In this document: one piece after another, positions 36,758 through 50,988 of the stretch
Layout of the letters: the number at the start of each line of letters is the position of its first letter
Numbering within the stretch: the first letter of the stretch is position 1
Position numbers and translations under genes: made by a program
NCBI RefSeq assembly: GCF_029919115.1
Contig: NZ_CP123990.1
Coordinates: 2,418,001 to 2,482,000, forward strand
From: Variovorax paradoxus
GTDB taxonomy: Bacteria > Pseudomonadota > Gammaproteobacteria > Burkholderiales > Burkholderiaceae_C
DNA: 64,000 bases
Reading direction: 5' to 3'
Notes under the pieces: generated by a model
What the model saw: the letters and a program-made list of their open reading frames with translations, nothing else
Database searches by the model: none
What the model was told of the DNA's origin: nothing

Positions 36758-36791
36758 GGTTTTTTCTCGTGGGTTGGTTGCGGGGAATAAA

Positions 36792-36805
36792 GGATTCTAG
36801 AAAGG
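36792..36805. repeat. Left attachment site core (attL)
   Basis: GGATTCTAGAAAGG, identical to 50973-50986; beyond it one mismatch is followed by ATC in both copies. It lies 34 bases upstream of sodB and 139 bases before the integrase start. A TCTAGA in the core repeats at 36808-36813, giving local inverted symmetry. Confidence 0.85.
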
Positions 36806-36944
36806 TATCTAGACCATATCTTTACGGGCCTTTCCCTAGCTACGGATTTCGTTCGATTTCATTGGGCAGCATAGGCAAATCAGGTAGAAACGGGAATAAC
36901 GTTGCTTCCCGTTCCTTAGTTCCCTTCCTAGCGATAGGATAGCT

Positions 36945-38165
36945 ATGACAGACCAAGCGAAGAAACCAGAGAAGGTCCAGGCTCTGACCGAAAGGCTAGC
37001 ACGAACGCTGCCGCCCGGTGAGTATCAGGACAAGGATACGAAAGCCCTGCGGTTCTACGTGTCGGACAAGGGCGTGCGGTCCTTCGGCGTTTACAAATGG
37101 TCGCCCACCGCCGGGAAGGGTGGCAAGGGAGCCCCGGTCCGCATCGCCATCGGCCGGCATCCAGAGCGGACGGTGGAGGCGGCACGAAAGCTAGCGCGGG
37201 ACTACAGCGCCAAGCTGGCGGATGGAGAAGACCCTCGGCTCAAGCCAAAGGTCCGATCCCAAGACCCGACGTTGCGAGAAATCACCCGAACCTACACCGC
37301 CGAACTCGAACAGGAAGGCAGAAAGCGCTGGTATTGGGTTGAGCGCATCGTTATGGGGTACAGAGGCTATCCGGGGTCATACGAGGATTGGCTGGACCTC
37401 CCCCTTTCGGCCATCACCCGGACCATGGTTGATGAGCGCCATAGACGAATCGCCTTCGGCGACAAGGAGCATGAAAAACGCGGCCCGGAGGCGGCCAACG
37501 CCTCGCTGAAGGCTTTGCGCGCCATCTTCGCGTTCGCCGAGAAAAAGGAGCTGTATACGGGCAAGAACGTCGCCAAGCTCGTGGACAAGGAAAAGTCAGC
37601 CTCCCGGGAGCGGGTCCTGTCGAATGCCGAATATGAGGCGATCATCGCGGCGCTGGACGCCCCCCAATTCCTACCCTACGTGCGGCCCTACTTCCGCCTG
37701 TTGATGCTCACGGGAGCCCGGAAATCGAACATGGCGGCAGCGCGCTGGGCTGACATAGACCTCGAGCAGGCAGTCTGGACGATCCCCCCGGGCAGCAGCA
37801 AAAACGGACGGGAAATGCGGGTGCACCTGCGCCAGGAGGCCGTCGACCTGTTCGAGGCTCAGCTCAAAACTCAGGCTGGCAACCCCTCCGAATGGGTATT
37901 TCCGACTCCGAGCGGCGCTGACAGTGGGCATATCGAGGAAGTCTGGCCCGTGTGGAAGACCGTCCTAAGGGTGGCCGGGGTCAAAAACGACATCACGATC
38001 CACGACCTCCGGCGCACCTTCGGCTCACGCCTTCTGAATGACGATACCCCGATGGAGGTGGTCGCCAAGCTGCTCGGCCATCGCAACGCGGCTACGACAG
38101 CGAAGCACTACGCATTTCTCGAAGACGCCACCGTGAAGGGCCATCTGAATCGAGTCAGGGGCTAG
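36945..38165 (+). CDS. int: Tyrosine-type site-specific integrase
   Basis: A 406-residue recombinase. The N-terminal Arm-binding domain (ALRFYVSDKGVRSFGVYKWSP) is of the P4/DUF4102 kind, followed by a SAM-like core-binding domain and the catalytic domain with Arg259 (TGARKSN), His353-x-x-Arg356 (IHDLRR), His379 (LLGHRN) and the nucleophile Tyr389. All expected residues are present, so it should be active. It would recombine the 14-bp core between xseA and sodB. It is transcribed inward from attL, 139 bases from the core. Confidence 0.95.
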   Translation: MTDQAKKPEKVQALTERLARTLPPGEYQDKDTKALRFYVSDKGVRSFGVYKWSPTAGKGGKGAPVRIAIGRHPERTVEAARKLARDYSAKLADGEDPRLKPKVRSQDPTLREITRTYTAELEQEGRKRWYWVERIVMGYRGYPGSYEDWLDLPLSAITRTMVDERHRRIAFGDKEHEKRGPEAANASLKALRAIFAFAEKKELYTGKNVAKLVDKEKSASRERVLSNAEYEAIIAALDAPQFLPYVRPYFRLLMLTGARKSNMAAARWADIDLEQAVWTIPPGSSKNGREMRVHLRQEAVDLFEAQLKTQAGNPSEWVFPTPSGADSGHIEEVWPVWKTVLRVAGVKNDITIHDLRRTFGSRLLNDDTPMEVVAKLLGHRNAATTAKHYAFLEDATVKGHLNRVRG

Positions 38166-38166
38166 A

Positions 38167-38577
38167 TCAGCTTTTCAGCTTGCACGCAGCTATGGAAGTG
38201 AAGACTGGACGGCCATAGTTCGCGTCTTTTATCTTGAGAAGCTCAGCGAGGGTATTGAGGCACCGCAGTTCGGTCTTGGAAGAGACGACCACTGCTTCGC
38301 CGAAAAGCTCGTCCCGCAGCACGCCCTCATACGGGAGCATCGACGCTACGTTCGTCTCCGAGCAACTGAACTTAATCCCGTTGGAGGGCGCGCCCTCCGC
38401 TATCTGCTTCTTCGAGGCATCGTCATAGGCTCGGCATAGCTCGGGCGTAGCGAAACCAACTTGAACAATCGGGTCCGTGCCCATTACGAATCTCATGTAT
38501 CTGGCCCCCTCGTTCGTCTGAGCCGCAAGACCTCCGCTCGCGAGCGAAACAAGCACCGCAAGAATCAACTTTGTCAT
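38167..38577 (-). CDS. Secreted hypothetical protein of the element
   Basis: A 136-residue protein with a signal peptide (MTKLILAVLVSLASGGLAAQ) and a mature part with three cysteines (ELCRAYDD, FSCSETN, RCLNTLAE) plus CKLKS at the C-terminus, so two disulfides are possible. I do not recognise a family. The ATG at 38577 follows AAAGGAGAAGG; a longer ORF start at 38619 lacks this. It converges on the integrase with 1 base between stops. An exported cargo protein on such an element may act at the host envelope, but there is no direct evidence. Confidence 0.65.
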   Translation of the reverse strand: MTKLILAVLVSLASGGLAAQTNEGARYMRFVMGTDPIVQVGFATPELCRAYDDASKKQIAEGAPSNGIKFSCSETNVASMLPYEGVLRDELFGEAVVVSSKTELRCLNTLAELLKIKDANYGRPVFTSIAACKLKS

Positions 38578-38708
38578 TGCCTTCTCCTTTGTTAGTCGCG
38601 GATCGTAAGTTGAGGGCATTGGATGACGCTAGCCCAAGCAAGGACTCTTCCCGATTGCGGGGGCGCTCGGCTCGTGTCATAAATCGTTACCAACTACGAG
38701 GAGCGACA

Positions 38709-38984
38709 GTGGCCGACTTGATCAGCAAGAATGACCTTCAGTTCAAAGACTATGCTTGGAAAGCGATCCCGCCTGATGACGCTCGCGTTACAGGCAAGCC
38801 CGATTCGACACTGCTCAATCGCGGGGAGGGCTATGAAGTTCTCGCCTTCCTCAATCGCATCTCGAAGACAAAAGAGAGTGCGCTGAAGGGAGAGCGCCTG
38901 ATCAAGAACAATCTTCCGGGCGATGTACGCAGTCACAGGAACGTGCACCAATGGCTCGTCGATAACTGGAGCAAGCACGCTTAA
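38709..38984 (+). CDS. Small hypothetical protein of the element
   Basis: A 91-residue soluble protein starting at the GTG at 38709, preceded by GAGGAGC at good spacing. It contains KDYAWKAIPPDDARVTGKPDSTLLNRGEGYEVLAFLNRI and a basic C-terminus (GDVRSHRNVHQWLVDNWSKHA). No family recognised. It lies divergent from the secreted protein and ends 1 base before the stop of the next gene, which runs the other way. The longer frame starting at 38571 is possible but its N-terminal part does not look like a natural protein start. Confidence 0.55.
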   Translation: MADLISKNDLQFKDYAWKAIPPDDARVTGKPDSTLLNRGEGYEVLAFLNRISKTKESALKGERLIKNNLPGDVRSHRNVHQWLVDNWSKHA

Positions 38985-39467
38985 TCACGTCAGACGCCGG
39001 TCTGCCCCCATCAAATCCGCTCTAATTCGCATCGGGTTTACTTCGCCCCGCAGGTATTTGACCTTGACCTGAAGCGCTACGTCCGGGTCCAGCCCCACGT
39101 AGAGAAGATGGTGGATGAAGGTGGGGCTCACGACATAGGCTAGGTCGTCGTCGGCGAGCCCTTGCGCCACGATGGCGAGCATCAGTTCCTGGCATGCCTC
39201 GATGGGCGTGTACGGCAGGCCAGGTCGCAGCGGCGGGAGGTAGGGGCCGACCGATCCGGCGTACCCCGTCGCCTTCGGCAGGGCGAGCCCCGTAAACGCG
39301 CCGACCGGCCCGGGCGCTACCCGAGTACCCTCCCCGCTCGCCGCCGTTGTCTGCGTCGATCTGCCAGCTTGCACGAGGCATTGATCCGGGGGCGCTACGG
39401 GCGAAACTTCCGAGCTACCGTCCGCGCGCGCTTCTACATTTGTGCAGAACAGCGTTGAATTCACCAT
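38985..39467 (-). CDS. Hypothetical phage-type protein, end of the ejection-protein operon
   Basis: A 160-residue protein with a disordered Pro/Ala/Gly-rich first 90 residues and a structured end (IEACQELMLAIVAQGLADDDLAYVVSPTFIHHLLYVGLDPDVALQVKVKYLRGEV). No family recognised. The ATG at 39467 has AGGGGCG before it. It is the last gene of a minus-strand operon starting at 44130. The gene order suggests a structural or accessory virion role, but this protein itself gives no clue. Confidence 0.6.
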   Translation of the reverse strand: MVNSTLFCTNVEARADGSSEVSPVAPPDQCLVQAGRSTQTTAASGEGTRVAPGPVGAFTGLALPKATGYAGSVGPYLPPLRPGLPYTPIEACQELMLAIVAQGLADDDLAYVVSPTFIHHLLYVGLDPDVALQVKVKYLRGEVNPMRIRADLMGADRRLT

Positions 39468-39473
39468 TCGCCC

Positions 39474-39848
39474 CTAGTGTTTGGTGGCTCCAGCGCTCTC
39501 TTCACGAATCCGCTGCGCCTCCGCAACGATGGCGAGGCACACCTGATCCAGATCGAGGCCGGGAACCGATGCGGGGTGGACCGTGACTAGATCGCCAATG
39601 TCGATGCCGACCGACAGCATGTACTCCAACATTTGCAGCAGCGCCCACGTGACCGCCGTGTCGAACTGCCCGAACCGCCCGCGCATGGTGGCCACCATCT
39701 GATTGCCCTCGGCGTCCACTGATCGCACGCTCATTGAGTAGGCATCGGGGCCGACCTCCGGGTGATCGAACAGATGGCCGATGTAGACCTGATCCTCGAT
39801 GGCGAGCGTGCCGAGATACGCGACATGCCTGAGAGGGTTAGAAGCCAC
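39474..39848 (-). CDS. Hypothetical phage-type protein
   Basis: A 124-residue protein with core ILxVHPVGPDAYSMSVRSVDAEGN-like beta structure and a C-terminal helix pair (LDLDQVCLAIVAEAQRIREE). I chose the GTG at 39848 because AGGAG lies 6 bases upstream; the longer frame start at 39863 would put that ribosome-binding site inside the gene. It overlaps the previous gene by 11 bases. No recognised function. Confidence 0.55.
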   Translation of the reverse strand: MASNPLRHVAYLGTLAIEDQVYIGHLFDHPEVGPDAYSMSVRSVDAEGNQMVATMRGRFGQFDTAVTWALLQMLEYMLSVGIDIGDLVTVHPASVPGLDLDQVCLAIVAEAQRIREESAGATKH

Positions 39849-40125
39849 GGGGACTCCTGTCACGTTGAGCGAGACGCTCCACCAGCTGAGCCGCGATGGC
39901 GTCGGTGTTCGCCGGGCGATCCTGCGACCCGAGCGTGGCGGATGGAGAGCCTGTCTGCCCCATGATCGTGACGGGCGGGTTGGGGCGAACTGTCGAGCGC
40001 CGAGCTTCGATCAGGCGGTTCGCCTCGTCGGCCATCCACTTTTGGCGCTGCCTCATCTGCTCGGGCGACAACTTGTAGGAAGGCTGCCCCGAAAACGGCA
40101 TTACGTTTGGGTCCATAAAGCTCAT
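39838..40125 (-). CDS. Hypothetical small phage-type protein
   Basis: A 95-residue protein, MSFMDPNVMPFSGQPSYKLSPEQ onward, with a long Arg/Glu-rich helix (RQRQKWMADEANRLIEARRS) and disordered middle. A very good ribosome-binding site (AGGAGGCG) precedes the ATG. It overlaps the large upstream protein gene by 4 bases. No family recognised. Confidence 0.6.
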   Translation of the reverse strand: MSFMDPNVMPFSGQPSYKLSPEQMRQRQKWMADEANRLIEARRSTVRPNPPVTIMGQTGSPSATLGSQDRPANTDAIAAQLVERLAQRDRSPRGF

Positions 40126-41819
40126 TGCGCCTCCTGTGTCGAGTTGTTCTGGGTCGCCAAAGCTCGGCCTACCTGCGGCACGAGTTCTCGCAACCGAGCC
40201 CCCACGGCGGGAATTTGAGCCGCGAGCTGTTCGAGCGCGGTGCGTTGGCCGGCTGGCGGGAGCGAGGCGATATGGCTGATGACCTTGTCCGGAACGACAC
40301 CGCGCAGACCGTTCACCAGGAACGACATGCCGGGGCCTGAATACAGCGCTGCCGCGGCGGCGGCAGGGAGCGCCTGGCCGGTGAGCGCCGCGCCACCACC
40401 GAGCAGGCTCCCTCCAAGCAGGGCTCGGCCCGCTGTACCGCTGTCGGGCACGGTGTTCGGCAGAACCTTCTGGCCAGCGAGATTCAGTTCGCTCGGGCGC
40501 TGGTTGTATTGGCCGCTGGCGCGGTTGAGTTGACGCGGAGTGAACTGGCCGGAGGTCGTCCGATCTGCCGCCTTGAGCACGGGCAGCATTTGCCGATATG
40601 CAGCATTCGTCGCGCTCAGCGTCCTGATCGCCTCGGGAGTCGTGCCCTCCAGCGCACCCCGCAAGGAGGCCTGGAGTTCATAGAACGCCTCCCCAAGCGG
40701 GTGGTCGGACGGGTTCACCGAGCTAGTGAACTTGCGCGCGTAGTGGCCGATTTCAGCGTCAATGGCCTTCGCCGTCTCCCCGCTGATCGGCCCGCCGCGC
40801 TGCGCCGCTTCGTTGACCGCTGGCGTGATCTTCTGGGCGACGTACTTGATGACATGCCCCTTCTGCTCGTCCGTGATCAACGGAATCTCATCGATGGAGG
40901 ATCGAACGCTTTTGACCGCCTGTACTACGCCCTGCGGCGGGATGAAAGTCTGCGGAAGCACGCGATCATAGTAGTCAGACACGACCTTGCTCGCTTGCTC
41001 TACAGCCTCTGCCCCGCTCCCCGCCACCTTCTCGCCGAGCGGCTTGAGCGCCGCGTTGATCTCTGCGTTGCCATACTCGGACAAGGAGCGGCGACGGGCG
41101 TGCTGAACGACATCACCCACGAGCGGGATCGACGTGATCTTGTCTTCCGCCGAACGCACGAGGCTGCCGATGGGCCCGTCCCCGAACAGCTGGCCCGGCG
41201 TCGGCCGCACCCCAGCGTCGATGAGGGCTTGCGCCTCTTTGGAAACGAATGGGCGAGCCAACCCGCCGAGCGCCCGTGTCAGCACCCTGCCGCCAGCGGC
41301 CCCGGCCCCGCCTACAAGTGCCGCTGTGCCGCGCTCGTCAGGCTCAGCAGTTGCAGCGGCATAGCCCGCGTTCGTGGCAATGTCGGCGGAAGCCGGAGCC
41401 ATGCGGCCGAGAGTCTTAGCAAGCACCTTTCCGCCGAGGGAGGCGGCTCGACCAATCGGAATAGCAGTGGCGGCGACTTCACCCGTGATTTCGCCCACCT
41501 TGCCCGCAGTGCCCAAGGCCTCTTTGTTCGCTTCGTAGGTGGCGAGGTCCGCCTTGCGCGCCCTGCCGTTGTCTCCGGTATGGCTGAAGGTCATCGCATC
41601 GATGGGCGATCCGGGCGGAAAGATCTTGTCGCGCAGCCGTGCCGCCGCCCCCCCGACGCCCGTCACAAATCGTTCGGTGGCGGTCATGCCATCAGCGGGA
41701 TTTGGCGCTGGCTCCTTCGGTGGGAACTGTTTGCGAAGCACCGCAGTGATCGCACCATCGTCCATGTCATCCGGGAAGGAGCCCGTGGACCCGTCCGGAA
41801 GCGCGATGAGCTTTGCCAT
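40122..41819 (-). CDS. Probable phage internal virion/DNA-ejection protein, large
   Basis: A 565-residue protein whose N-terminus (ALPDGSTGSFPDDMDDGAI ... TAVLRKQFPP) resembles the short DGxxxxFPDDM module found in many large phage internal virion and ejection proteins. The middle contains Gly/Ala-rich amphipathic stretches and long helices, and the C-terminus has a hydrophobic segment (GRALLGGSLLGGGAALTGQALPAAAAAALYSG) that could enter a membrane. No enzymatic motif was seen (for example no transglycosylase Glu-Ser motif). Function as an ejection protein is inferred from these features and the neighbouring gene at 41823. Confidence 0.6.
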   Translation of the reverse strand: MAKLIALPDGSTGSFPDDMDDGAITAVLRKQFPPKEPAPNPADGMTATERFVTGVGGAAARLRDKIFPPGSPIDAMTFSHTGDNGRARKADLATYEANKEALGTAGKVGEITGEVAATAIPIGRAASLGGKVLAKTLGRMAPASADIATNAGYAAATAEPDERGTAALVGGAGAAGGRVLTRALGGLARPFVSKEAQALIDAGVRPTPGQLFGDGPIGSLVRSAEDKITSIPLVGDVVQHARRRSLSEYGNAEINAALKPLGEKVAGSGAEAVEQASKVVSDYYDRVLPQTFIPPQGVVQAVKSVRSSIDEIPLITDEQKGHVIKYVAQKITPAVNEAAQRGGPISGETAKAIDAEIGHYARKFTSSVNPSDHPLGEAFYELQASLRGALEGTTPEAIRTLSATNAAYRQMLPVLKAADRTTSGQFTPRQLNRASGQYNQRPSELNLAGQKVLPNTVPDSGTAGRALLGGSLLGGGAALTGQALPAAAAAALYSGPGMSFLVNGLRGVVPDKVISHIASLPPAGQRTALEQLAAQIPAVGARLRELVPQVGRALATQNNSTQEAQ

Positions 41820-41822
41820 GGC

Positions 41823-43061
41823 TTATTCCAGCCGCCCAGTGGCGGGGTTGTAGACGCGAATCTTGGGTGCGGGCGCGGACTGCTGATCGACGGCGGTCCT
41901 CACGGCATCGCGGATTGACGGTCCAGAAGACGGCTGCGCGGGTACCGGGCCATTCGCGGCACGATGCATGATCCGACGCACCTGCTTGAGCGCAGCAAGG
42001 CGCGTCTCGGTCGGCAACTCCTTGTTCGCGAGGTCGCCGCCTTGCTTCTTGAGAAATGCCAAGTCCGCGTCCGACACCTGGCCCGCCATGCGGGGAATGT
42101 TCGCCACGATGCCGTTCGCCACGGTTTCAAGCGCGGCGGCGGCCTTCGCGCCGTCCGTTGAGATGCCGGCAGCACCGGCGATGGCATCACGAAGCGATCC
42201 GCCTTTGGAGCCGGTGGCCGTCTTGAGCAACGTCTCGGCCTCGTTCAGGTCTTCGAGCGCCTTGGCAGCGTTGTTCTTGTTCTCCCCTTGTTTCGTGCGG
42301 TCCGCAGTGAGCGATGACGCCTCTCGACCGATGGAGCCAAGGGGACTCACTTCTCCGGTGAGCTTGTTGACCCGATGCGCGTTACCTTGAGCATCCTGGA
42401 TGATCTGGTAGTTGCTGGCTTTGTCGCTGCTTCCGCCACCGTTGGCCCGCACAGCCGCTGCAAGCGTGCGCCGCAGGTCATTGGAGTCACCTGCGAGGTC
42501 GCGCCGCAACTGGATGCTCTGTTCGTCGCGGTCGCGCCTGTATTCCAAGTCCTCCTGCTGTTTGCGCTGGCTCTCGGCAATCGTTTGGGCCCGAGCCTCC
42601 TTGCGATCGGTGCGAACTGCGACCCGCTCCGGTTCGTTGACCAGCTGATCCTTGGCGTAGTCCATCATGAGCGACCGCAGTGCAGGAATTTGAGCGCCCT
42701 GCTGGGCCCACGCGAGCTTCGTCGGTTGCGGGGCGTCATCCGGGGGCTTCATCGCCATGTGCTGGTTGACGGCCTGCATCTCATATTTGTCGTACCCGGT
42801 CTGGTCGGCGTCCAAGCCCTTCTTCTCCATCGCCTGAGTAAGCTGCTCGACCAACGGGGTCAGCATCTGCGTCTTGGCGGGCGGGACGTAGTACCCGGAA
42901 ATCATCTGTCCTTGCGGCGCCGCTTTCTCCCGCGCGGCCTTGATCCGCTCCTTGAGATCGGCTTCCCGGTCACGCAGACGATGCTGCTGCAAGATGAGCG
43001 AGGAATTGCCGAAGCTAGCAGGCAGTTGATTGATGTCGTCGTAGTAGTTCATGGAAGGCAT
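41823..43061 (-). CDS. Probable phage internal virion/DNA-ejection protein, coiled-coil type
   Basis: A 412-residue protein. Residues ~1-60 and ~140-220 are strongly charged helices likely to form coiled coils (RDREADLKERIKAAREKA, QRKQQEDLEYRRDRDEQS). The C-terminal part has GQVSDADLAFLKKQGGDLANKELPTETRLAALKQVRRIM, a pattern recurring in ejection or virion proteins of tailed phages. AGGAGC precedes the ATG at 43061. It lies 3 bases upstream of the 565-residue gene. The call is by pattern, without a database search. Confidence 0.6.
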   Translation of the reverse strand: MPSMNYYDDINQLPASFGNSSLILQQHRLRDREADLKERIKAAREKAAPQGQMISGYYVPPAKTQMLTPLVEQLTQAMEKKGLDADQTGYDKYEMQAVNQHMAMKPPDDAPQPTKLAWAQQGAQIPALRSLMMDYAKDQLVNEPERVAVRTDRKEARAQTIAESQRKQQEDLEYRRDRDEQSIQLRRDLAGDSNDLRRTLAAAVRANGGGSSDKASNYQIIQDAQGNAHRVNKLTGEVSPLGSIGREASSLTADRTKQGENKNNAAKALEDLNEAETLLKTATGSKGGSLRDAIAGAAGISTDGAKAAAALETVANGIVANIPRMAGQVSDADLAFLKKQGGDLANKELPTETRLAALKQVRRIMHRAANGPVPAQPSSGPSIRDAVRTAVDQQSAPAPKIRVYNPATGRLE

Positions 43062-43073
43062 GGTGTGCTCCTG

Positions 43074-43544
43074 TTACTCGTTGCCCTGCGTGCCGACGAC
43101 ATTCACCGCGGCCTCGATGTGATCGCGCAGCGTCTCGGGCGGCAGCGGGCGGTCTGCGTCGGTCCCCATTTGCCGCTGGAGCCCGTCCGTCAACTGCTCG
43201 TCTTCCAACCGCTGGTTGGCCTCACGCAGATATCGCATTACCTCGGGATCGGCGGCGCGGTCGGGTCGATGCGTGTCACGGGGAGCAAACGGCGTCGCGA
43301 GGCCAGCGGCCCATGCCGGGTTCGCCTTGCGGTCCTCGTCGGTGACGGTTGAGTTATTGATCGCGTCAGGCCGGGCACGCTCACCGTTCTCGGCGCGGCG
43401 GATTTGCTGGAAGTCCCGAACGAAGTGCTTGTAAGCCTCCGGGTTCGACTCACGTAGCAATCTCAGATGGGTGAGGATGCCGGGCCGAGATAGCACCGCC
43501 ATCTCATCGTCGGCCAAGTAGTTGGGGTGGATTTTCAGAGGCAT
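43074..43544 (-). CDS. Hypothetical phage-type protein
   Basis: A 156-residue hydrophilic protein starting MPLKIHPNYLADDEMAVLSRPG, largely helical, with a charged C-terminal half (LREANQRLEDEQLTDGLQRQMGTDADRPLPPETLRDHIEAAVNVVG). It lies between two other operon members with only 1 base separating its start from the upstream stop. No family is recognised; a virion role is possible by gene order. Confidence 0.55.
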   Translation of the reverse strand: MPLKIHPNYLADDEMAVLSRPGILTHLRLLRESNPEAYKHFVRDFQQIRRAENGERARPDAINNSTVTDEDRKANPAWAAGLATPFAPRDTHRPDRAADPEVMRYLREANQRLEDEQLTDGLQRQMGTDADRPLPPETLRDHIEAAVNVVGTQGNE

Positions 43545-43545
43545 T

Positions 43546-44130
43546 TCAACTCCTTGGGGTTACCGGCTTCCACGGCTGGGGACCAATCTGGGGAACGGCT
43601 GCAGCGCGCGGGTACACCACGGCGCGTTGTTCTTGCTTGCGCAGCCGCGACTCGGCGGCACGGGCAGCCTCCGCCACCCCGAAGTACTCGGCCAGCAGCG
43701 GAGGCAATCCGATCAGCCCCGACTCGGCGCTGTCTCGGATGTACGGACGTAGTTCTTCATCCGGGTTCAGCCGCACGTGCTCCGGGTGGTTTGGCGAGAA
43801 CACCGGCATCGGCGTTGGGGTGCGCGTTGGGCTCTTCGGCAAAGCGGCTCGGGAGAGCGCAGCTTCCACAGTGGTGAACGCGGCGTTCAGTGAGGCGTCG
43901 GGCTTAAGCCGTGGAAGGTGGGCCTTACGCAGATGGGGATAGAGCCGATCCATGGCAGCGGGATCGACCTTGAACGCTTCGAGCAGCGCGCGCTCGGCTT
44001 CAACGGCGTGGTGCTCATAAATTTGCAGCGATTGACGCAAACCATCTTCCCTAACGAGGCGCTCCCTGCCAACATCTGGGTACGTCTCGTTACTCGGAAA
44101 ATCAACGGCTGATAAAGAACTCCGATTCAT
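43546..44130 (-). CDS. Hypothetical phage-type protein, first gene of the ejection-protein operon
   Basis: A 194-residue protein with an N-terminal helical region (RQSLQIYEHHAVEAERALLEAFKVDPAAMDRLYPHLRKAHLP) and a Pro-rich centre (KSPTRTPTPMPVFSPNHPEHV). It starts the minus-strand operon and is divergent from the SIR2 gene across a 101-base AT-rich spacer. No catalytic motif recognised. Confidence 0.55.
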   Translation of the reverse strand: MNRSSLSAVDFPSNETYPDVGRERLVREDGLRQSLQIYEHHAVEAERALLEAFKVDPAAMDRLYPHLRKAHLPRLKPDASLNAAFTTVEAALSRAALPKSPTRTPTPMPVFSPNHPEHVRLNPDEELRPYIRDSAESGLIGLPPLLAEYFGVAEAARAAESRLRKQEQRAVVYPRAAAVPQIGPQPWKPVTPRS

Positions 44131-44231
44131 TTCGCAATTGCCTGAGAATATTTAATTCTCGCCGAATTACGAAGATCGGTAAATTAAAACCTATATATGA
44201 GGGAATTAGGATTTACCCCTAATAAAAATTA

Positions 44232-45650
44232 ATGTCAAATTTCGAGCAGTATCAACTCCAAGTTGCAAAAGACGTTGCCAAGATCATCAAGGAAAAATCT
44301 TGTCAGCCGATTCTTTTTGTAGGGTCTGGCTTCTCCAAGCGGTACTGTGGAGCGCCCAATTGGGCTGCACTCTTGACCGAGCTAAAGGGATACTGCCCAG
44401 AGATAAAGCACGATGTCCCCTATTATCTTCAATCGAAAACAACCCTTCCCGAGGTCGGCTCGATCTACGCCAAAGCCTTTAAAGAGTGGGCATGGGGAGA
44501 GGGCAGAAAGTTTTTTCCTGACGCATACTACACCGCAAATGTGCACGAGGATATTTTCATAAAGCATGCGGTTTCAAAAAGACTCGAAGGGTTGGGGCCA
44601 GACAAAACCGGTTCTTTTGGCTTGCAAGCACTGGACGACGAGATCGACGCATTAAAGTCGATCAATCCACACGCGGTCATTACCACAAACTACGACACCC
44701 TTTTAGAGCCAATATTTCCGGAATACAAACCGATCATTGGCCAACAGGTCATTAGACATGCTTACATGTCGATTGGAGAAATATTTAAAATCCACGGGTG
44801 CGTTTCAGATGCCTCGTCACTTGTACTCACTAACGAAGATTACGACAGGTTCGCAAATGACAAGAAATATTTAAGCGCAAAGCTCTTTACTTATTTCGTT
44901 GAGCACCCCTTGCTTTTCATCGGTTATTCCGCTGGCGACCCGAACATTAAGGCAATCCTTCAGGAAATTGATCACATGCTACCGGAAGGAGGCAATCTGA
45001 TCGAAAATATTTACCTACTGGAATGGGATGACAAGATTTCCGCTGAAAGCCAACCGCCTTACGACAAAATAATAGATTTGGATGACGGAAAAACGGCACG
45101 AGTAAAAAGCATTACGGCCAATTCATTTGAGTGGGTCTTTAAAGCCTTCAAGAGCGAAGCGCCTCTTGAAAAAGTCAACGTCAAACTCTTGCGCTCGATC
45201 AGCCACAGAGTTGTCGATCTTGTTCGTAAGGATGCCGCAAAAAATGTAGTGGAAATAAATTTCGAGATGCTCAACCACGCACTTGAGCACCCCGAAGATT
45301 TTGCCAAAGTCTTCGGCATCGCGGCCATGGCTGACCCAGCATTACTTAACGTGATGTATCCGTACTCCCCAACTGCCGCTGCAGAATATCTTGGATATGG
45401 AAAAGATTGGAATAAAGTCAATCAACTCATTACAAAGCTCAAAGAAACAGAGGGCTTTGACATAAGAGGAAGCGACAATCATTTTCACGTAAGCATTCCT
45501 GCAGGAGCAAGAAGCAATCCGCTCAGAAAATATTCGCAAGCAGGACTTGATTTGCTTGCAAAAGTCCGCGATGGCGCTGAACTTCCGGACTTGAAGAACC
45601 CAATGGTCACTGGAGAAAAAGCAAAGCCGGCAGATAACGATGAACTTTGA
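44232..45650 (+). CDS. SIR2-domain protein, probable anti-phage NADase
   Basis: A 472-residue protein with an N-terminal SIR2-like domain: FVGSGFSKRY (residues 29-38; the GAGxS-type NAD loop), TTNYDTLLE (151-159), KIHG (186-189, catalytic His188) and GYSAGDPN (231-238). The C-terminal ~200 residues match nothing I recognise and may be the sensor. Known SIR2 defence proteins (DSR, Thoeris ThsA, SIR2-HerA) deplete NAD+ after infection. The gene is far more AT-rich than its neighbours, lies on the opposite strand between two phage-type operons and has its own intergenic spacers, all signs of separately acquired cargo. NADase activity is inferred from the retained catalytic motifs. Confidence 0.8.
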   Translation: MSNFEQYQLQVAKDVAKIIKEKSCQPILFVGSGFSKRYCGAPNWAALLTELKGYCPEIKHDVPYYLQSKTTLPEVGSIYAKAFKEWAWGEGRKFFPDAYYTANVHEDIFIKHAVSKRLEGLGPDKTGSFGLQALDDEIDALKSINPHAVITTNYDTLLEPIFPEYKPIIGQQVIRHAYMSIGEIFKIHGCVSDASSLVLTNEDYDRFANDKKYLSAKLFTYFVEHPLLFIGYSAGDPNIKAILQEIDHMLPEGGNLIENIYLLEWDDKISAESQPPYDKIIDLDDGKTARVKSITANSFEWVFKAFKSEAPLEKVNVKLLRSISHRVVDLVRKDAAKNVVEINFEMLNHALEHPEDFAKVFGIAAMADPALLNVMYPYSPTAAAEYLGYGKDWNKVNQLITKLKETEGFDIRGSDNHFHVSIPAGARSNPLRKYSQAGLDLLAKVRDGAELPDLKNPMVTGEKAKPADNDEL

Positions 45651-45971
45651 TGTCACGACTTCTGCTGCCAGTCTGCGAAGGGGGCTCAGCACAGTACAGC
45701 CACCCACCCGGCCCGCCGCTTCATGGGTACCCCATGTGAAGGCCTGGCCAGCCCACCTCCATGTCGAGCCTGCCGCGTGTCGCGCATGGTCGTGATGGGT
45801 CATGGATCAGAGGCAGCAGAGCTCAGCTTTCAGGCTCGTCTAGCTGCCCTGTCGCAGAAGCCCCCGGCGCACACGTTATTCCCCTCGGGAACGCCGCCAT
45901 CTATGCACAGCAATGACTTAGCTCTGCGTCGATATGAGATGAGCTAGACCCGGGTCGCTCGACGCGAAAAT
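45651..45971. other. Intergenic region after the SIR2 gene
   Basis: About 320 bases with no convincing gene. A small 74-codon frame at 45723-45947 is present but has no ribosome-binding site or protein-like composition. The short near-palindrome around CATGGGTACCCCATG is the only obvious structure here. It is more GC-rich than the SIR2 gene itself. Confidence 0.5.
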
Positions 45972-46023
45972 CGGCCCGTAGGCGCGCTATCGCCCGAATC
46001 GATATCCGAGTACCTACGGGCCG
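45972..46023 (-). terminator. Long inverted repeat at the end of the small-terminase-like gene
   Basis: CGGCCCGTAGG (45972-45982) pairs exactly with CCTACGGGCCG (46013-46023); inside the 30-base loop TATCG (45988-45992) and CGATA (46000-46004) form a second small hairpin. On the minus strand the stem is followed by ATTTT, so it could terminate the gene at 46014, whose stop codon lies within the arm. A binding or packaging site is also conceivable. Confidence 0.5.
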
Positions 46024-46463
46024 GGAAAACGCGCGCTGCCAGGCTCTGGCAAGGCCGGATCGTCATCAGCGGTTTCGACGCTCGGGGCGGTTTTCGCGGT
46101 CGCGTCAGAAATCGTTAGGCCAGTTTCGATGAGCTTCACGGCCTCGGTGCCGAGCCGGTAGGCGTGGCGCTGCGCGCTGATCCAAGGCATCTCATCAATC
46201 CGATGAACGTTGTCGGTGCTGACGTGCTGGTCCGGCTTGCCCCAACCTCGATCCAACAAAGCTGACGCGGCCTTTACCTTGGCGTTGAGGTCTTCACTTT
46301 GCTCGATAACGTCGATGAGCGCCTTTACGGCTTTCGGAGTCGCCCGCTGCGCCAGCCGGCGCGCTTCGACCATCGGCGGCTTGATCTTGCCGATCTCAAG
46401 CTCAGTGCAAACGCCAGCGGCGCACTCTTCAGGCGTCCAATACTCAATGAGTGGTTCTTCCAT
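46014..46463 (-). CDS. Phage-type protein, possibly small-terminase-like
   Basis: A 149-residue protein containing RRLAQRATPKAVKALIDVIEQ and AKVKAASALLDRGWGKPDQ. This helical pattern (short repeats ending in a DRGWGKP-Q motif) recurs in phage proteins encoded near terminase genes and sometimes annotated as small terminase subunits. The C-terminus is acidic and disordered. The ATG at 46463 has AGGAGCG before it; an upstream ATG at 46487 lacks it. No large terminase is nearby. In phage satellites of the PICI type a small terminase gene redirects packaging, which makes this gene worth attention, but the identification is weak. Confidence 0.5.
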   Translation of the reverse strand: MEEPLIEYWTPEECAAGVCTELEIGKIKPPMVEARRLAQRATPKAVKALIDVIEQSEDLNAKVKAASALLDRGWGKPDQHVSTDNVHRIDEMPWISAQRHAYRLGTEAVKLIETGLTISDATAKTAPSVETADDDPALPEPGSARFPGP

Positions 46464-46819
46464 ATTCGCTCCTGTATGCGGGTCCATGCTGATGAGGCTG
46501 CGGGCTTTGTCACCCCCCTACCCCCCTCGTTTTCTAAAACTTTCTCCCGGCTCGTTTTCTCCCCTTTTCCTGCAACAAAGCGCCCCCTTTTTCTCTCCCT
46601 CCTAAATCTAAAAAGAGAACAGGGGGTGACAGGGGGTAGCGCGTCGAATCCCTTACGCGGCGGGGCTTCCGCGACCCCTCCACCAGGTCCGCCGCACAGG
46701 GGGTCGAACCGGGGTCCGAATCGTTTGACAGGGGGTACACCGGCCCAACGGCCCGCTTTCCTACCCCCGGTCCGACTCGCTTGAAGGGGGGTCGCGGCCC
46801 GCTTTGAAGGGGGGTCGCG
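46464..46819. other. Intergenic region between small-terminase-like gene and primase-helicase
   Basis: This 356-base spacer has no plausible gene. It contains a pyrimidine-rich half (46500-46600) and a G-rich repeat array described separately. Its position beside the replication protein gene makes it a candidate replication origin. Confidence 0.5.
46619..46815. repeat. Candidate iteron array (possible replication origin)
   Basis: Four exact copies of ACAGGGGGT begin at 46619, 46629, 46696 and 46728, all in the same orientation. Two related copies AAGGGGGGT lie at 46784 and 46807, each followed by CGCG. The array ends 5 bases before the primase-helicase stop. Direct repeats next to a replication initiator gene are typical of iteron origins, but binding has not been shown. 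Confidence 0.55.
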
Positions 46820-48949
46820 CTAGGCGTCATATTTCTTCGCCTTCACAGAGAACGTCGCGTCAAACTTCGTCTTTTCCATGAACCAGAGTCGCCGCTCGCC
46901 CAGCGGATTCTTGTTTGGGTCCGCCTGCTCGAATCCGAGCTTGCGCAGCGGGTTCGTCAGCGCAGTCGCGCCACCGCCCGCGTGCTTAAAACCCGGGGGC
47001 ATCAGTTCGGTCAGATCGGTGAGCTTGAAGCCAGTGATAACGCGCCCTTTATATGGGCCGCTACGGAGCCGAGGCGCGAAGTTGGCGCCTTCGATCACAT
47101 CGATGATCTGCTCCATGTTGAGGTCGGTCTTCACGTGCCGCAAGGCGCTCTCGGCCGCACCGTCCACCTCATCGAATTTCTCGCCCGACTCGACCGCGAT
47201 GAGCGCCGCGCCGAGCAGATCGTCAGCCGCCGCCTCCATGCCCGCGAAGTCGAACTTGCCCCCCACGAAGTCCACTTCGAGCAGGTCCAGCACCGCGAAA
47301 CGCGTCATGCCTGCCGAGTCTTCAAACAGGAAGTCGGGCTTGTCCACGGGCACATAGAACACGCAGCGCCGGGGCATGTCGACGTTCACGCGCCCGTAGG
47401 GCAAGCGGATGTTGTCGACCGCGGTGCTGATATCAGACTTGACGTGTTCGATTCCGCTGCTGCTGAGCGCGGCCATTTCGTCGTGAACCGCAACTAGGCA
47501 CGAGCCGTAGGTCATCGCGAGGTCTTTGCCCGCCGAGTTCGCCTTGGAAACGAGCGCAACATTGCTCTGCCCAACGATACTGTTCATGAAGAACGTCTTG
47601 CCGATGCCCTGCGGTCCGGCGAGACAGAACGCCGTGCGCATCGAGCACCCGGGACGAAGCGCACGCCCCACCACAGCCATCAAGAACTTCCGACCCCAGC
47701 GACAGTTCCACGGTGTGTCCGGCGCGCGTAAATATCGCAACGTCCAGGCATTGAGCGCGTCGTCAGCGGCCTGCATTGCCTCCGTGCCCCCCTCGCGCAA
47801 CCGATCCGCCGACGCACGCACGCGGTCATTGAACGGTGAGCGCTGGTCCCGCGCGATCCGACTGGCAATAGCCTCGCGCATGGCTTGGCTCGTGATAGTG
47901 CGCCCACTGCCATTGAAACCGAGCTGCTTCTGAAAAAAGTGCAGCATGTCGTTGTCGCCCACGTTCTCGACCAGTTCCGCATCGCCGAACATCGCGCGTC
48001 TGCGGTCCCGATCAAGCCAGAGTCGGCCACGAAACTCCGGGTGAGACTCCAGCAGTCGGTCGAAGTTGTAAGCAATCGCCTGCGGTAGTTGCCGTTCCTC
48101 GCCACGCCGCCCGACCGACTGGGTGATCAACTGGTATTTGCGCGCCAGTGCCTCTGGGTTCTCTGGCAGGGTCAATGTCGATTGCTCGACTACCCCGGCC
48201 ATCACGGTTTCGTATCCGACCTCGGCCACCAGATCATCGAACTTCGCGCCGACGCGCAGACTCGACAGATCCATGATGACCACGTCCACGTCAAGAACCA
48301 TGAGCGCGGCGGCGAACGCGGAGTAGGCTTGGCCGACGTTCGTATTGGTCTTGTAGTCGGCATCCGGCCAGACCCGAACCTTCACGCGTTGGCCAGGACA
48401 TGCGGCTTGAATGCGGGCGACTTCGCTGACGATCCACGGGTGGATTTGCCCCTTGTTCTCCGGGTCGCCCCAGCTATTGCAGCCGGCTATGCCGATAGCG
48501 CACTGAGCACCCTTCACGACCGCGCATGCGGTCTTCTTTTCGCCCTCGTGGATATCAAGGATCGCGGTGGTCGTGCCATCGACTCGACCGGGGTGCATGT
48601 ACGGGATTGAGGCTAAAAAACCAGCAGTGCGCTTCGACGGGCGCACGTACTTTTTTGTGCTGATCTCGTACGGGGTGCCCGCTTTGAAGCGCGGCTTGCG
48701 CACGGTGACCTGCTCACACTGCGCACCGTCTGGATTCCAGTACGGAAATGCATAGTGCATCGACACCCAGACCGCCATGTTCTGGGCGTCTTTCTGACCG
48801 TCATCGATGATCTGAACGTCTGGCCAAGGCGTGCGCCCTTCGCCCATGACAGCAAAGGCCGCCATGTCCTCCGGCTTGAGCCCGGATTTCGCCAGATCAT
48901 CTTGCATCCACTTGACGGCTGGGTTGTGGATGTCGAGCACGGCGCTCAC
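46820..48949 (-). CDS. VapE-type primase-helicase (replication initiator of the element)
   Basis: A 709-residue protein. Residues ~130-240 form a toprim-like (DUF3854-type) region with ILDIHEGEKKTACAVVKG and VWPDADYKTN. From ~residue 415 it is a virulence-associated-E/SF3 ATPase: Walker A AGPQGIGKT (444-452), acidic HDEMAALSSSGIEHVKSDIS, and PYGRVNVDMPRRCVFYVPVDKPDFL, as in VapE proteins. It should open and prime DNA for the element's own replication. Such proteins are common in phage satellites and integrative elements. Its ATG overlaps a 56-codon gene as ATGA, and the candidate iteron array lies directly past its stop. Confidence 0.85.
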   Translation of the reverse strand: MSAVLDIHNPAVKWMQDDLAKSGLKPEDMAAFAVMGEGRTPWPDVQIIDDGQKDAQNMAVWVSMHYAFPYWNPDGAQCEQVTVRKPRFKAGTPYEISTKKYVRPSKRTAGFLASIPYMHPGRVDGTTTAILDIHEGEKKTACAVVKGAQCAIGIAGCNSWGDPENKGQIHPWIVSEVARIQAACPGQRVKVRVWPDADYKTNTNVGQAYSAFAAALMVLDVDVVIMDLSSLRVGAKFDDLVAEVGYETVMAGVVEQSTLTLPENPEALARKYQLITQSVGRRGEERQLPQAIAYNFDRLLESHPEFRGRLWLDRDRRRAMFGDAELVENVGDNDMLHFFQKQLGFNGSGRTITSQAMREAIASRIARDQRSPFNDRVRASADRLREGGTEAMQAADDALNAWTLRYLRAPDTPWNCRWGRKFLMAVVGRALRPGCSMRTAFCLAGPQGIGKTFFMNSIVGQSNVALVSKANSAGKDLAMTYGSCLVAVHDEMAALSSSGIEHVKSDISTAVDNIRLPYGRVNVDMPRRCVFYVPVDKPDFLFEDSAGMTRFAVLDLLEVDFVGGKFDFAGMEAAADDLLGAALIAVESGEKFDEVDGAAESALRHVKTDLNMEQIIDVIEGANFAPRLRSGPYKGRVITGFKLTDLTELMPPGFKHAGGGATALTNPLRKLGFEQADPNKNPLGERRLWFMEKTKFDATFSVKAKKYDA

Positions 48950-49116
48950 GGTGCACCGCCCTTCCCGCCGATCTGCTGCATCTGCCGCCGCGCGCGGCGA
49001 GGCGGCGTCTTGGGTGGGTACCCGGGTGCGTAACCTAGCATTCCCGGCCCGGGCGGAGTGGTTCGATCCTGGGAGGGAGGCCGTGCCAGTGCGCGTTTGA
49101 GGCTGGGCGCGGTCAT
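48946..49116 (-). CDS. Very small Pro/Arg-rich protein coupled to the primase gene
   Basis: A 56-residue ORF, MTAPSLKRALARPPSQDRT onward, rich in Pro, Arg and Gly and predicted disordered. It overlaps the upstream 88-residue gene and the downstream primase gene by 4 bases each (ATGA at both ends), which supports translation. A longer ORF in this frame (to 49320) runs antiphase through the neighbour and is unlikely. Function unknown. Confidence 0.5.
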   Translation of the reverse strand: MTAPSLKRALARPPSQDRTTPPGPGMLGYAPGYPPKTPPRRARRQMQQIGGKGGAP

Positions 49117-49379
49117 GTCAGCCCCCTGCTCTGTTTGACTTTGATTTCCTCCATGAGCGCAACAGCACGTCGGCGGATTTCGGCGCGAGACATGATGGCT
49201 TCGGGGTATGTTTCTGCCGCTCGCTGCGCTGCCGCTGCTTTTACCTGCCGCTGCACGCGCATCCGCATGCGGTTTTGAGTGAGGGTTTCGACCGAGCCGC
49301 TGCTGTCGACCAAACTCCATGTATTCGTGGCGCGGTGGTAGCGGACTTCGATTAGGTTTCGCAGGATTTGATCGGTCAT
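49113..49379 (-). CDS. Hypothetical small protein upstream of the primase gene
   Basis: An 88-residue protein with an N-terminal beta-like part (NLIEVRYHRATNTWSLVDSSGSVETLTQNR) and a basic helical C-terminus (RAEIRRRAVALMEEIKVKQSRG). A good ribosome-binding site (AGGAGCAG) precedes the ATG. It belongs to the early minus-strand operon starting at 50237. No family recognised. Confidence 0.6.
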   Translation of the reverse strand: MTDQILRNLIEVRYHRATNTWSLVDSSGSVETLTQNRMRMRVQRQVKAAAAQRAAETYPEAIMSRAEIRRRAVALMEEIKVKQSRGLT

Positions 49380-49393
49380 GATCTGCTCCTGCC

Positions 49394-49846
49394 CTATAGA
49401 AGGCCCATGCGCCGTTGGGTGTCTTCTACGTCTTTTCGATTGGCCTCGGCGCGGGCCGCGTACTCATCCTGCATTTCCTTCAGGGCAGCGTCGGCCTCGA
49501 CTTTGGCACGGTGCTTCTTCTGTTCCTCTTCTAGCTTGAGAAGCACGCGCTGCTCCTGCTCTTTCCTCCTCGCGGCGGCACGAAGGGGAGCGGCGTCACG
49601 CCATTCGCGAAGACGCCTAAGCCAATCGTTCGCTTCGGCCTCGTTGTAAAGGTGCGCCCCACCAATGCGATATGACGGCTCGATTCTCGGCGCATCGACT
49701 TGACTCAAAATCACCCGCAAATGACCGGCGGTGGTTCCCACGCGTGCCGCCAAGTGGGCGAAGGTGACGAAGCCGGGCAAGGGCGAGTCAGGGTCAGCCC
49801 TTGGGATGTTGTCCGGGACTTTTGGCAACTGCGATGCATTGGCCAT
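49394..49846 (-). CDS. Helix-turn-helix/coiled-coil protein of the element
   Basis: A 150-residue protein with a MerR/excisionase-like segment (FVTFAHLAARVGTTAGHLRVILSQVDAPRIEPSYRIGGAHLYNEAEANDWLRRL), i.e. a wing-helix reading of a start pattern and a recognition-type element, then a long charged coiled coil (ARRKEQEQRVLLKLEEEQKKHRAKVEADAALKEMQDEYAARAEANRK). The ATG at 49846 follows GGAGAT. It may bind DNA at the replication origin or act as a packaging-type adaptor; which is unknown. The longer frame to 50143 is probably not translated. Confidence 0.6.
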   Translation of the reverse strand: MANASQLPKVPDNIPRADPDSPLPGFVTFAHLAARVGTTAGHLRVILSQVDAPRIEPSYRIGGAHLYNEAEANDWLRRLREWRDAAPLRAAARRKEQEQRVLLKLEEEQKKHRAKVEADAALKEMQDEYAARAEANRKDVEDTQRRMGLL

Positions 49847-50033
49847 TTGAAAATCTCCATGCGGCAGCCCAACCGGGAGGTTGAAACTGCGAAACGTTGA
49901 GGGGGAGCCCGGTGGCCGCCACAGGCGCGGTCCGGGGCGAAAGGTTGTTAACCCGCGAGGACTAATACCTTTAGATCGTAGAGAACGAACGAGCCGAACG
50001 CGAGCGCTTTCCTCGCGTGAGAGCCGTCTTTCG

Positions 50034-50237
50034 TTATTGAGGAAGCGGCTTAATGCAGGCCTCGACCTCGACTCTTTTGTAGAGCAGTCGGCGTCCGAAC
50101 TTATGTCGTGGCGGCAGATGAGGCTTGCGCTTCGTGTAGGCAACGTGCAATGCGTTCTCGCTCGTGCGCAGCAGCGCGGCGACCTCGCGATGGGTGAGGT
50201 ATTCGGGCGTGGCTTCGCCCTGACCTGATTTCGTCAT
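50034..50237 (-). CDS. AlpA/excisionase-like helix-turn-helix protein
   Basis: A 67-residue protein of the small MerR/AlpA-like DNA-binding kind: LTHREVAALLRTSENALHVAYTKRKPHLPPRHKFGRRLLYKRVEVEACIK, with the HTH followed by the wing that normally recognises DNA. The ATG follows GAGGATC. It is the first gene of the early minus-strand operon. AlpA-type proteins control integrase expression and excision in P4-like satellites and many integrative elements, so that role is likely here. Confidence 0.75.
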   Translation of the reverse strand: MTKSGQGEATPEYLTHREVAALLRTSENALHVAYTKRKPHLPPRHKFGRRLLYKRVEVEACIKPLPQ

Positions 50238-50556
50238 GATTTGATCCTCGGGATGAATTGATGCGGGGGCATGTTCGTGACCGTTGCAGTCACTGGCCGG
50301 GGCCGCTCCCGATGGCGCCTGCTGGCGCTATCCCGAGAGTTGGTCGAAATTCAAGTTCCGACTGAACGAGCGCGCTTCCCAACGCGACGGGAAAATTCTC
50401 CCACAAAGACTTCCGTTGCGCTACGTTGAATCTCCTGCTGAATGCACGTGCGCTTCACTCTGATATGAGCGGATATGTCTAGGTCTTTCCAGAACACACG
50501 CCCCAGAATTTCTTGTCGGACGAACGTATTGCTTCGTCACCAACGGAAAGCAAACC
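50238..50556. other. Intergenic region upstream of the early operon
   Basis: This 319-base spacer between the AlpA-like gene and the small gene at 50557 contains no plausible ORF. It probably holds divergent promoters. A hairpin with arms GATGGCGCC (50311-50319) and GGCGCTATC (50324-50332; one mismatch to perfect complementarity) is present. No terminator-type T-run follows it. Confidence 0.45.
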
Positions 50557-50907
50557 ATGACCGACTTCAACCTGACCATCGGAGCGCCCTCTTCCAAGCG
50601 CCTGAGCAATCTGCCTGCGGCGAAGTATTCGACTGCACCGCGAACCAACCAATTCGAGGCCACTGTTAATGGCGCGCCGTCGCCTGCTTGGACGACCGAG
50701 GGCAAGGGCAAAGCCCAAGCGGTCAATTGCTACGTTTATTTCCGCCATGACGGCACGCTCTACTTCGTGAAGGTCCCAAGCCCCAAGGAACTCACCGCTG
50801 CACGCGAGTCGCTCGTCATCACCACCGACACATGGGAAGAAGAGCAAACCAAGGCACCTTCGCGCCCGGTCACGAAGCGTCGCCGGGTTGCCAAGAGCGC
50901 GGCCTAA
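50557..50907 (+). CDS. Hypothetical protein next to attR
   Basis: A 116-residue soluble protein, MTDFNLTIGAPSSKRLSNLPAAKYSTAPRT onward, with a central beta-rich segment (AVNCYVYFRHDGTLYFVKVPS) and a very basic tail (RPVTKRRRVAKSAA). I do not recognise a family. It is the only plus-strand gene at the right end, 65 bases before the attR core, a usual site for cargo or control genes. A basic tail suggests nucleic-acid binding, but nothing proves it. Confidence 0.6.
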   Translation: MTDFNLTIGAPSSKRLSNLPAAKYSTAPRTNQFEATVNGAPSPAWTTEGKGKAQAVNCYVYFRHDGTLYFVKVPSPKELTAARESLVITTDTWEEEQTKAPSRPVTKRRRVAKSAA

Positions 50908-50972
50908 TCGACCGCTAGCTCTAGCTGCTGCCTAGCGAAATCTCCGGGAGGGCGCGCCGTATAAGGGATCGC

Positions 50973-50986
50973 GGATTCTAGAAAGG
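50973..50986. repeat. Right attachment site core (attR)
   Basis: GGATTCTAGAAAGG, identical to attL at 36792-36805. It ends 2 bases before the xseA stop codon on the minus strand. Joining the flanks outside the two cores would restore xseA and sodB as neighbours about 50 bases apart. Confidence 0.85.
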
Positions 50987-50988
50987 AA

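Follow-up and report, generated by a model that had tools for sequence, protein, structure and literature searches.

The 64,000-nucleotide stretch of the Variovorax paradoxus chromosome analyzed here, hereafter the window (positions 2418001–2482000 of contig C1 in a 5.8 Mb genome), contains an integrated element of 14,181 bp between sodB (36176–36757) and xseA (50989–52383). Coordinates given below are window positions unless another locus is named. The element appears to be a podophage satellite resembling the phage-inducible chromosomal islands (PICIs), one that would bring its own ejection proteins to the particle of a helper phage; we put the probability of this reading at roughly two in three. 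The features on which it rests are as follows, with lengths in amino acids (aa) and E-values after the family names.

36792–36809, no strand: attL, 18-bp direct repeat GGATTCTAGAAAGGTATC, which pairs with attR and has a single copy at the empty site of six other genomes
36945–38165, plus strand: tyrosine integrase, 406 aa (PF00589, 8.1e-29; arm-binding PF13356, 6.9e-9)
38985–39467, minus strand: conserved element protein, 160 aa, with no relative in the phage sets searched
39838–40125, minus strand: conserved element protein, 95 aa, of a family with 11 members
40122–41819, minus strand: g565, large ejection (internal virion) protein-like, 565 aa, with relatives in phages
41823–43061, minus strand: g412, ejection-type protein, 412 aa (phrog_33352, 1.1e-20), its C-terminal domain being widespread in phages
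43074–43544, minus strand: g156, conserved block protein, 156 aa
43546–44130, minus strand: g194, conserved block protein, 194 aa, with PQPWK close to the C-terminus
44232–45650, plus strand (opposite to the block): cargo, SIR2-domain candidate defence gene, 472 aa (PF13289, 1.3e-24; PADLOC candidate family PDC-S25, 1.7e-83)
46014–46487, minus strand: small-terminase-like (terS-like) protein, 157 aa as called and 149 aa in a database entry, with weak PHROG matches
46508–46819, no strand: candidate replication origin from repeat analysis, with ACAGGGGGT-type repeat units around an AT-rich stretch
46820–48949, minus strand: VapE-type primase-helicase, 709 aa (PF05272, 1.3e-32; PF12965, 2.1e-6)
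50034–50237, minus strand: AlpA-like helix-turn-helix regulator, 67 aa (PF12728, 4.3e-7)
50973–50990, no strand: attR, 18-bp direct repeat GGATTCTAGAAAGGAATC, which pairs with attL

The initial annotation of this stretch, made from the sequence alone, had named an integrase, an AlpA-like regulator, a VapE-type primase-helicase and a SIR2 cargo gene, all of which are borne out by the family matches listed. It had also proposed flanking 14-bp repeats, with coordinates that are correct within four bases. The exact 14-mer GGATTCTAGAAAGG is found at both ends (36792–36805 and 50973–50986) and extends to 18 bp with one mismatch. The pattern GGATTCTAGAAAGGNATC, which covers both repeat copies, occurs in 7/101 genus genomes, with two copies here and one in each of six others. 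In these six genomes, the single copy lies between sodB and xseA and the site is empty (in L139, the stretch covers just 35 sodB residues). Because six other genus genomes hold one copy at an empty sodB–xseA site, the end repeats are attachment sites, and chance is excluded. The PICI combination of a tyrosine integrase, flanking attachment repeats and empty sites is present, and so, as judged by sequence families, are an AlpA-type regulator and a primase-replication gene. The insertion point lies 34 bases before the sodB start (region 36758–36944). The gene is thereby severed from its former upstream DNA, and it may depend on a promoter in the left end of the element.

The same compact layout recurs in the genus. 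A survey of 101 genus genomes was done with g412 as the query, so that elements without g412 would escape it; it gave matches in 15 genomes, of which 10 have the full gene set (the window, L021–L028 and L030) and five the C-terminal domain only (L029 and L031–L034). The full set comprises the integrase, the AlpA-like regulator, the primase, the terS-like gene, a cargo slot and a block with the 412-aa and 565-aa proteins at its end. In iterated profiles, the integrase, AlpA, terS-like, g156, g412, g565 and 95-aa families were each found in 10/10 elements, the 160-aa family in 9/10, g194 in 8/10, a 116-aa family in 7/10 and SIR2 in 2/10; open reading frames (ORFs) of the relatives came from a simple longest-ORF script, by which small genes may be missed or wrongly called. 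The ten elements are a satellite family, and the search for second genomes that the initial annotation had called for succeeded in 10/101 genomes. They occupy three integration sites: seven elements lie at a site between Mur-ligase and ArsC-family genes, two at sodB–xseA (the window and L027), and L025 elsewhere. The first of these is a second hot spot, used by L021–L024, L026, L028 and L030; its Mur-ligase flank gene is presumably FolC-like. Among 299 genomes of the taxonomic family, g565 had four matches, the window included.

At the common site, the g412 proteins share 23–65% identity in 18/21 pairs, 86% in the L022/L023 and L022/L024 pairs and 98% in L023/L024. The best-matching flanking DNA is 75–91% identical, or 91–93% for L023/L024, with the qualification that g412 was compared as protein and the flanks as DNA, and that some L026 matches are shorter than 100 bases. 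Most elements at this site are more diverged than their flanks, which indicates repeated acquisition. Between the window and L021, the g565, g412, g156 and g194 proteins are 80–91% identical, the integrases are 42% identical, and the sites differ; modules exchange between elements. In this pair, the only one tested, the ratio of nonsynonymous to synonymous substitution rates (dN/dS) is 0.18 for g565, 0.10 for g412, 0.07 for g156 and 0.18 for g194, so that the block is under purifying selection there.

These data bear directly on the alternative that had been raised at the outset, namely that the element is a decayed prophage that has lost its morphogenesis genes. Such a history would explain phage-type genes without the remainder, next to an integrase and attachment sites. 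It is contradicted by the recurrence of one gene set in ten elements across three sites, most of these elements being more diverged than their flanks, by module exchange, by dN/dS values far under 1 in the tested pair, and by a cargo slot that is filled in 9/10 elements. A full phage gene set in relatives at sodB–xseA would have spoken for decay; none was seen in L027, which holds another element of the family, or in the six genomes with the attB pattern, whose sites are empty. The decayed prophage was rejected on the recurrence of the gene set, the purifying selection in the one pair, the divergence exceeding that of the flanks and the lack of a full relative at the site, and we regard it as hardly credible. 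The interpretation as a phage satellite, already favored in the initial annotation, is supported by the same recurrence at three sites.

The proposal that the satellite supplies ejection proteins centers on g412 and g565, which are separated by 3 nt in the window. They had been described as ejection-protein-like, and homology to phage proteins was indeed found. A profile scan of viral contigs yielded 394 g412 relatives and two g565 relatives. The best 80 of the 394 g412 relatives were retained; these match mostly the C-terminal domain (approximately residues 250–380), which belongs to phrog_33352, a family with no function assigned in PHROGs, and none of these 80 is a full-length match. Single-sequence scans of the viral contigs with g412 and g565 gave no relatives, and tblastn against phages gave none for g412 and one weak match for g565. 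In the IMG/VR contig L128, one protein aligns with 300 columns of g412 (8.3e-21) and is followed directly by a g565 relative; relatives of g412 and g565 stand side by side in L117 as well. Further g565 relatives, in L130, L131, a Microcystis phage and a Bradyrhizobium phage, occupy a comparable place among structural genes. In the Bradyrhizobium phage, the gene preceding the g565 relative resembles g412 at an E-value of 0.016 only. Homologs of g565 include WAX24425 and XAN61287 (Bradyrhizobium phage ppBeUSDA76-2 and Microcystis phage Mvi-Yong1342-1). Such podophage ejection genes sit within a full structural operon in phages, unlike those of the element. Some further database proteins related to g565, at 31–36% identity, carry PF01464 or PF18013 (transglycosylase/lysozyme) domains. 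Domains of this kind are expected of large ejection proteins.

The N-terminus of g565 exists in at least three modules across the elements, and L030 carries yet another. Each of three modules is also present on phage proteins, in 12 loci at an E-value of 1e-3 (two of them, L086 and L087, have identical coordinates and may be copies of one phage). In 11/12 loci, the start of the module-bearing phage protein lies −24 to +5 nt from where a g412 relative ends; the twelfth is the Microcystis phage, where no g412 relative was detected. Since most of these loci were chosen for the g412 domain, vicinity is partly selected, but immediate adjacency is not so explained. Four genus loci (L029, L031, L032 and L034) hold, within one 20-kb stretch, both a g412 relative and a match to the major-head-protein family phrog_1328, which has relatives in Pseudomonas phages such as PaP4; the phrog_1328 match is in two pieces in L031 and holds a stop in L029 and L034. 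Scaffold, head and structural genes are named around the g412 relative of L032, and in L032 and the Bradyrhizobium phage the genes corresponding to the pair lie far downstream of the capsid genes. By these sequence relationships, g412 and g565 are the counterparts of two neighboring phage genes, as in a podophage cassette, with both large proteins represented in L128 and L117 and one of them or a module elsewhere. A viral fold search with the g412 model was set aside: it returned mostly uncharacterized phage proteins, with E-values to 1.5e-5 and a template-modeling score of at most 0.31 in the 50 rows listed.

In PHROGs and Pfam, no confident match to capsid, portal, large terminase, tail or lysis families was found among the window proteins scanned, in agreement with the initial annotation. 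Against a strict absence of structural and lysis genes stand three weak matches: g412 resembles a holin family (0.0066), the 160-aa protein a tape-measure family (0.34) and the terS-like protein a tail-fibre repeat (0.049, under the cut-off). In the ten elements, 85 non-core ORFs likewise gave no capsid, portal, large terminase, tail or lysis match among 25 of 30 PHROG families listed and all 14 Pfam families; these databases name primases, cargo and a terminase-small-subunit family (two ORFs). Capsid-forming PICIs (cfPICIs) have their own capsid, portal and terminase genes, and none of these was found in the window or in the 85 non-core ORFs. No Psu or Sid capsid-size protein was matched among the window proteins in PHROGs or Pfam, where no search was aimed at them and divergent forms are possible. 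Relaxase and conjugation families were likewise not matched by any element protein in these general scans.

The nearest known system is EcCIMP1, a PICI of E. coli MP1 that, according to the available part of the report, is 19,963 bp long, occupies a tRNA-Thr site, is mobilized by podophage Kapi1 and is transduced (PMC11773190). Like the Variovorax element, it has an integrase, AlpA, a primase and an ejection-annotated block, and no annotated capsid, portal or terminase. In RefSeq, its primase is followed by a DUF2824 protein, a 225-aa protein, a “phage DNA ejection protein” and a “lytic transglycosylase domain-containing protein”, which are 83%, 57%, 26% and 24% identical to Kapi1 genes over the aligned parts. 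Unlike the element, EcCIMP1 has no gene named small-terminase-like, and its block shows no homology to g412 or g565 better than an E-value of 0.045. The ejection genes of P22-type podophages are 14/7/20/16, and no homology of g412 or g565 to the P22-type proteins themselves was found in a comparison with the Kapi1 proteins. The claim of the initial annotation that the type had not been described must be tempered: EcCIMP1 (PMC11773190) follows the same logic, its cassette being unrelated.

A packaging or head-assembly role of the 412/565 proteins, instead of ejection, also has to be considered. From their position after the primase, the authors of the EcCIMP1 report proposed EcCIMP1_017–019 as packaging candidates, as far as its accessible text goes (PMC11773190). 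Set against this are the RefSeq names of two of the EcCIMP1 proteins and the place of the corresponding genes in L032 and the Bradyrhizobium phage, remote from the capsid genes, so that we give such a role little chance. A 2,452-base query comprising the first three EcCIMP1 block genes had matches in 656/5,426 E. coli genomes, with at least 80% covered in 68. Of two islands inspected, EC26 has the integrase, primase and block, the final block gene being broken by an IS66 element, and PK8276 has the integrase and block without primase and DUF2824, adjoining tail genes of an apparent other prophage. The large block proteins vary among the E. coli EcCIMP1-type islands (L141:4881–10049, L143:11001–18122 and L144:11005–15583).

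Other satellites have been compared as well, from literature that includes PMC11389934 and PMC6893505, consulted in part. To the extent covered in these reviews, satellites are described as stealing or resizing capsids, as redirecting packaging or as building capsids of their own. Gram-negative PICIs share with the element an integrase, an AlpA-type regulator, a primase and small size, and the parts of the sources available do not name an ejection-type pair as a module (PMC11389934, PMC11773190); here the terS-like gene comes after the primase. Compared with them, no packaging-interference or capsid-size gene was recognized in the element. The cfPICIs resemble the element in that some virion-type proteins are self-encoded but, according to the consulted portion of PMC11389934, they make their own capsids, whereas the element has no recognized capsid, portal or large terminase. 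An integrase, AlpA and a primase-helicase are common to the P4 gene set and the element. Compared with P4-like satellites (PMC11389934), the element differs in having ejection-type genes and no recognized Psu- or Sid-like protein. An ejection protein of phage 80alpha is touched on in the accessible parts of PMC10541612, PMC8125051 and PMC13216270. In the mainly open-access literature, no description of satellites with ejection cassettes as such was found, the nearest being the part of PMC11773190 available, nor of Variovorax satellites or of podovirus satellites with AlpA.

By analogy with PICIs, the following course may be proposed. A helper would infect or be induced, and the AlpA-like protein would turn the element on; the integrase would excise it, and the primase-helicase would replicate it from its own repeat-bearing origin. 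The terS-like protein would then direct the large terminase and procapsid of the helper to satellite DNA. The proteins g412 and g565, perhaps with the two small partners, would enter the helper procapsid, replacing or joining the ejection proteins of the helper, and would take the satellite DNA through the envelope of the recipient cell. The cargo, SIR2, would be an exchangeable anti-phage gene. In this scheme, excision, packaging and loading are inferred steps, as are the ejection function itself and which phage acts as helper.

Several observations weigh against this proposal. The ejection role of g412 and g565 is suggested by phage relatives that are themselves known from sequence alone. 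The two small partners of the cassette, g156 and g194, have no match in the phage sets searched, and no g412 relative is detectable in the gene preceding the g565 relative in L130, L131 and the Microcystis phage. Structure and Protein Data Bank fold searches gave only chance-level rows and no credible solved-structure relative for g412 or g565, and the g412 model is poor, with a predicted local distance difference test score (pLDDT) of 66. The terS-like protein matches phrog_15261 at 0.0018 and terminase-small-subunit families at 0.049 and 0.22, which is weak; its AlphaFold model has low confidence (pLDDT 63), and the best row of its fold search has an E-value of 0.089. In the window/L021 pair, which is one pair only, dN/dS reaches 0.45 for the terS-like gene and 0.43 for the 160-aa gene. 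The integrase lies beyond the block in nine elements, and in L025 it is beside alpA at the opposite end (L025:1474–3125). In L030, the interval between the terS-like gene and the block is 0.66 kb, with no opposite-strand ORF and no origin repeat. The scan of the 85 non-core ORFs is to be read within its 25 of 30 PHROG families, and no near-identical copy of the whole element was found by megablast in plasmid or phage records.

The lack of a near-identical phage record, together with that of a full-length g412 match among the best 80 of 394 viral loci, would also suit an integrative island that moves by conjugation or transformation and has merely acquired phage genes. The absence of relaxase and conjugation families among the element proteins scanned argues against this, and the combination of AlpA, primase, terS-like gene and phage-type pair is satellite-like; EcCIMP1, with the same logic, was transduced, according to the portion of the report available (PMC11773190). 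We consider such an island very improbable. A satellite whose ejection-type proteins interfere, entering helper particles to spoil DNA delivery or to block superinfection, would be in keeping with the candidate defence gene in the slot of at least the window and L026, and is unlikely on other grounds. The gene pair is complete and under purifying selection between the window and L021, the single comparison made, and three phage-type N-terminal modules exist across the elements; such features suit working virion parts better, and for a spoiler one truncated gene could presumably suffice. The likelihoods attached to the alternatives overlap and are not meant to sum to one.

A possible helper for the proposed satellite is found in the same genome. 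An apparently complete prophage (C1:1117909–1150735, L041–L043) has an integrase, large terminase, portal, a phrog_1328 major head protein, which we take to be LUZ24-like, virion structural genes and, where the ejection genes are expected, two large proteins. The latter differ from the pair of the element, with hhalign E-values of 0.001 only for g565 and 0.27 or worse for g412, and the 10 element carriers and 8 phrog_1328 carriers overlap in 1/101 genomes, i.e., without association, so that the resident prophage is at most a candidate helper.

A wider generalization is tentative, and we rate it at somewhat below even odds: podophage satellites may be a general class with their own DNA-ejection machinery, in which at least two lineages (Variovorax and E. 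coli, with unrelated cassettes) each placed an ejection block behind the primase, and an exchangeable N-terminal module on the large protein would determine the helper particle that accepts it. If the element works as proposed, it borrows the particle but supplies the injection proteins, and the delivery step, too, would be contested. The puzzling EcCIMP1 block would also be accounted for, and procapsid docking of ejection proteins could be tested by gene removal in E. coli MP1 with Kapi1, an existing laboratory system.

Where the initial annotation had a candidate iteron array, four copies of ACAGGGGGT lie at 46619–46736. In the interval from the primase stop to the terS-like gene, a spacer is enclosed by inverted arms made of short units specific to each element, a layout that we take to resemble the origins of Staphylococcus aureus pathogenicity islands. 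The longest exact inverted repeat of the window was reached by 26/200 shuffles and is not significant; among the relatives, the longest such repeat of each was reached by 0/200 shuffles in six, by 1 and 2 in two, and by 102 in L030. An ORF at 46534–46830, overlapping the candidate origin, is probably no gene. Shared core parts in this interval are approximately TTTCCGGGAAGTGTTCTA in L024, L027 and, loosely, L026, and AACAAG.AG in L022, L023, L026 and L027. The window VapE primase has no relative in the other elements; six ORFs of the latter instead match the primase families D5_N and DUF5906. The primase region of L030 (L030:13299–17000) apparently consists of two ORFs of 539 and 300 aa, and this element may be degenerate or use another replication type.

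The possible small-terminase-like gene had also been noted, and its presence in all ten elements is established, whereas the assignment has weak PHROG matches to go by. Among the ten relatives, phrog_15261 is matched by two and the terminase families by one each, the best value being 0.0019. The resident prophage, too, has a phrog_15261 match (4.5e-5), in the gene immediately preceding its large terminase gene; this favors the small-terminase reading without proving it. The terS-like family keeps an N-terminal W, D, C and G, but its middle part is of two unlike kinds, the first shared by the window, L028 and L030 and the second by the remaining seven elements. The interval from the terS-like gene to the block, where the cargo slot lies, spans 1.4–2.6 kb, with opposite-strand ORFs in 9/10 elements; its contents include SIR2, AbiJ/DUF7014, DUF4062 and unknowns. 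The gene in the same slot of L026 is 77% identical to the SIR2 cargo of the window.

The remaining genes of the element are small.

38167–38619, minus strand: small protein, 150 aa, without PHROG or Pfam family match, relatives in two other elements
38694–38978, minus strand: small ORF, 94 aa, without PHROG family, Pfam DUF1110 at 0.013 only, relatives in two other elements
39474–39863, minus strand: element protein, 129 aa, family in 3/10 elements, dN/dS 0.11 against L021
48946–49320, minus strand: small ORF, 124 aa, relative in L021 only
49394–49846, minus strand: small regulator- or DNA-binding-like protein, 150 aa from an inner ATG (phrog_66 excisionase/regulator, 0.0045)
50557–50907, plus strand: small conserved protein near the attachment site, 116 aa, adjoining the integrase in L022, L023, L024 and L026

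The 150-aa protein encoded at 49394 has relatives in 7/9 other elements, with 78% identity in L021 and 25–39% in the others.

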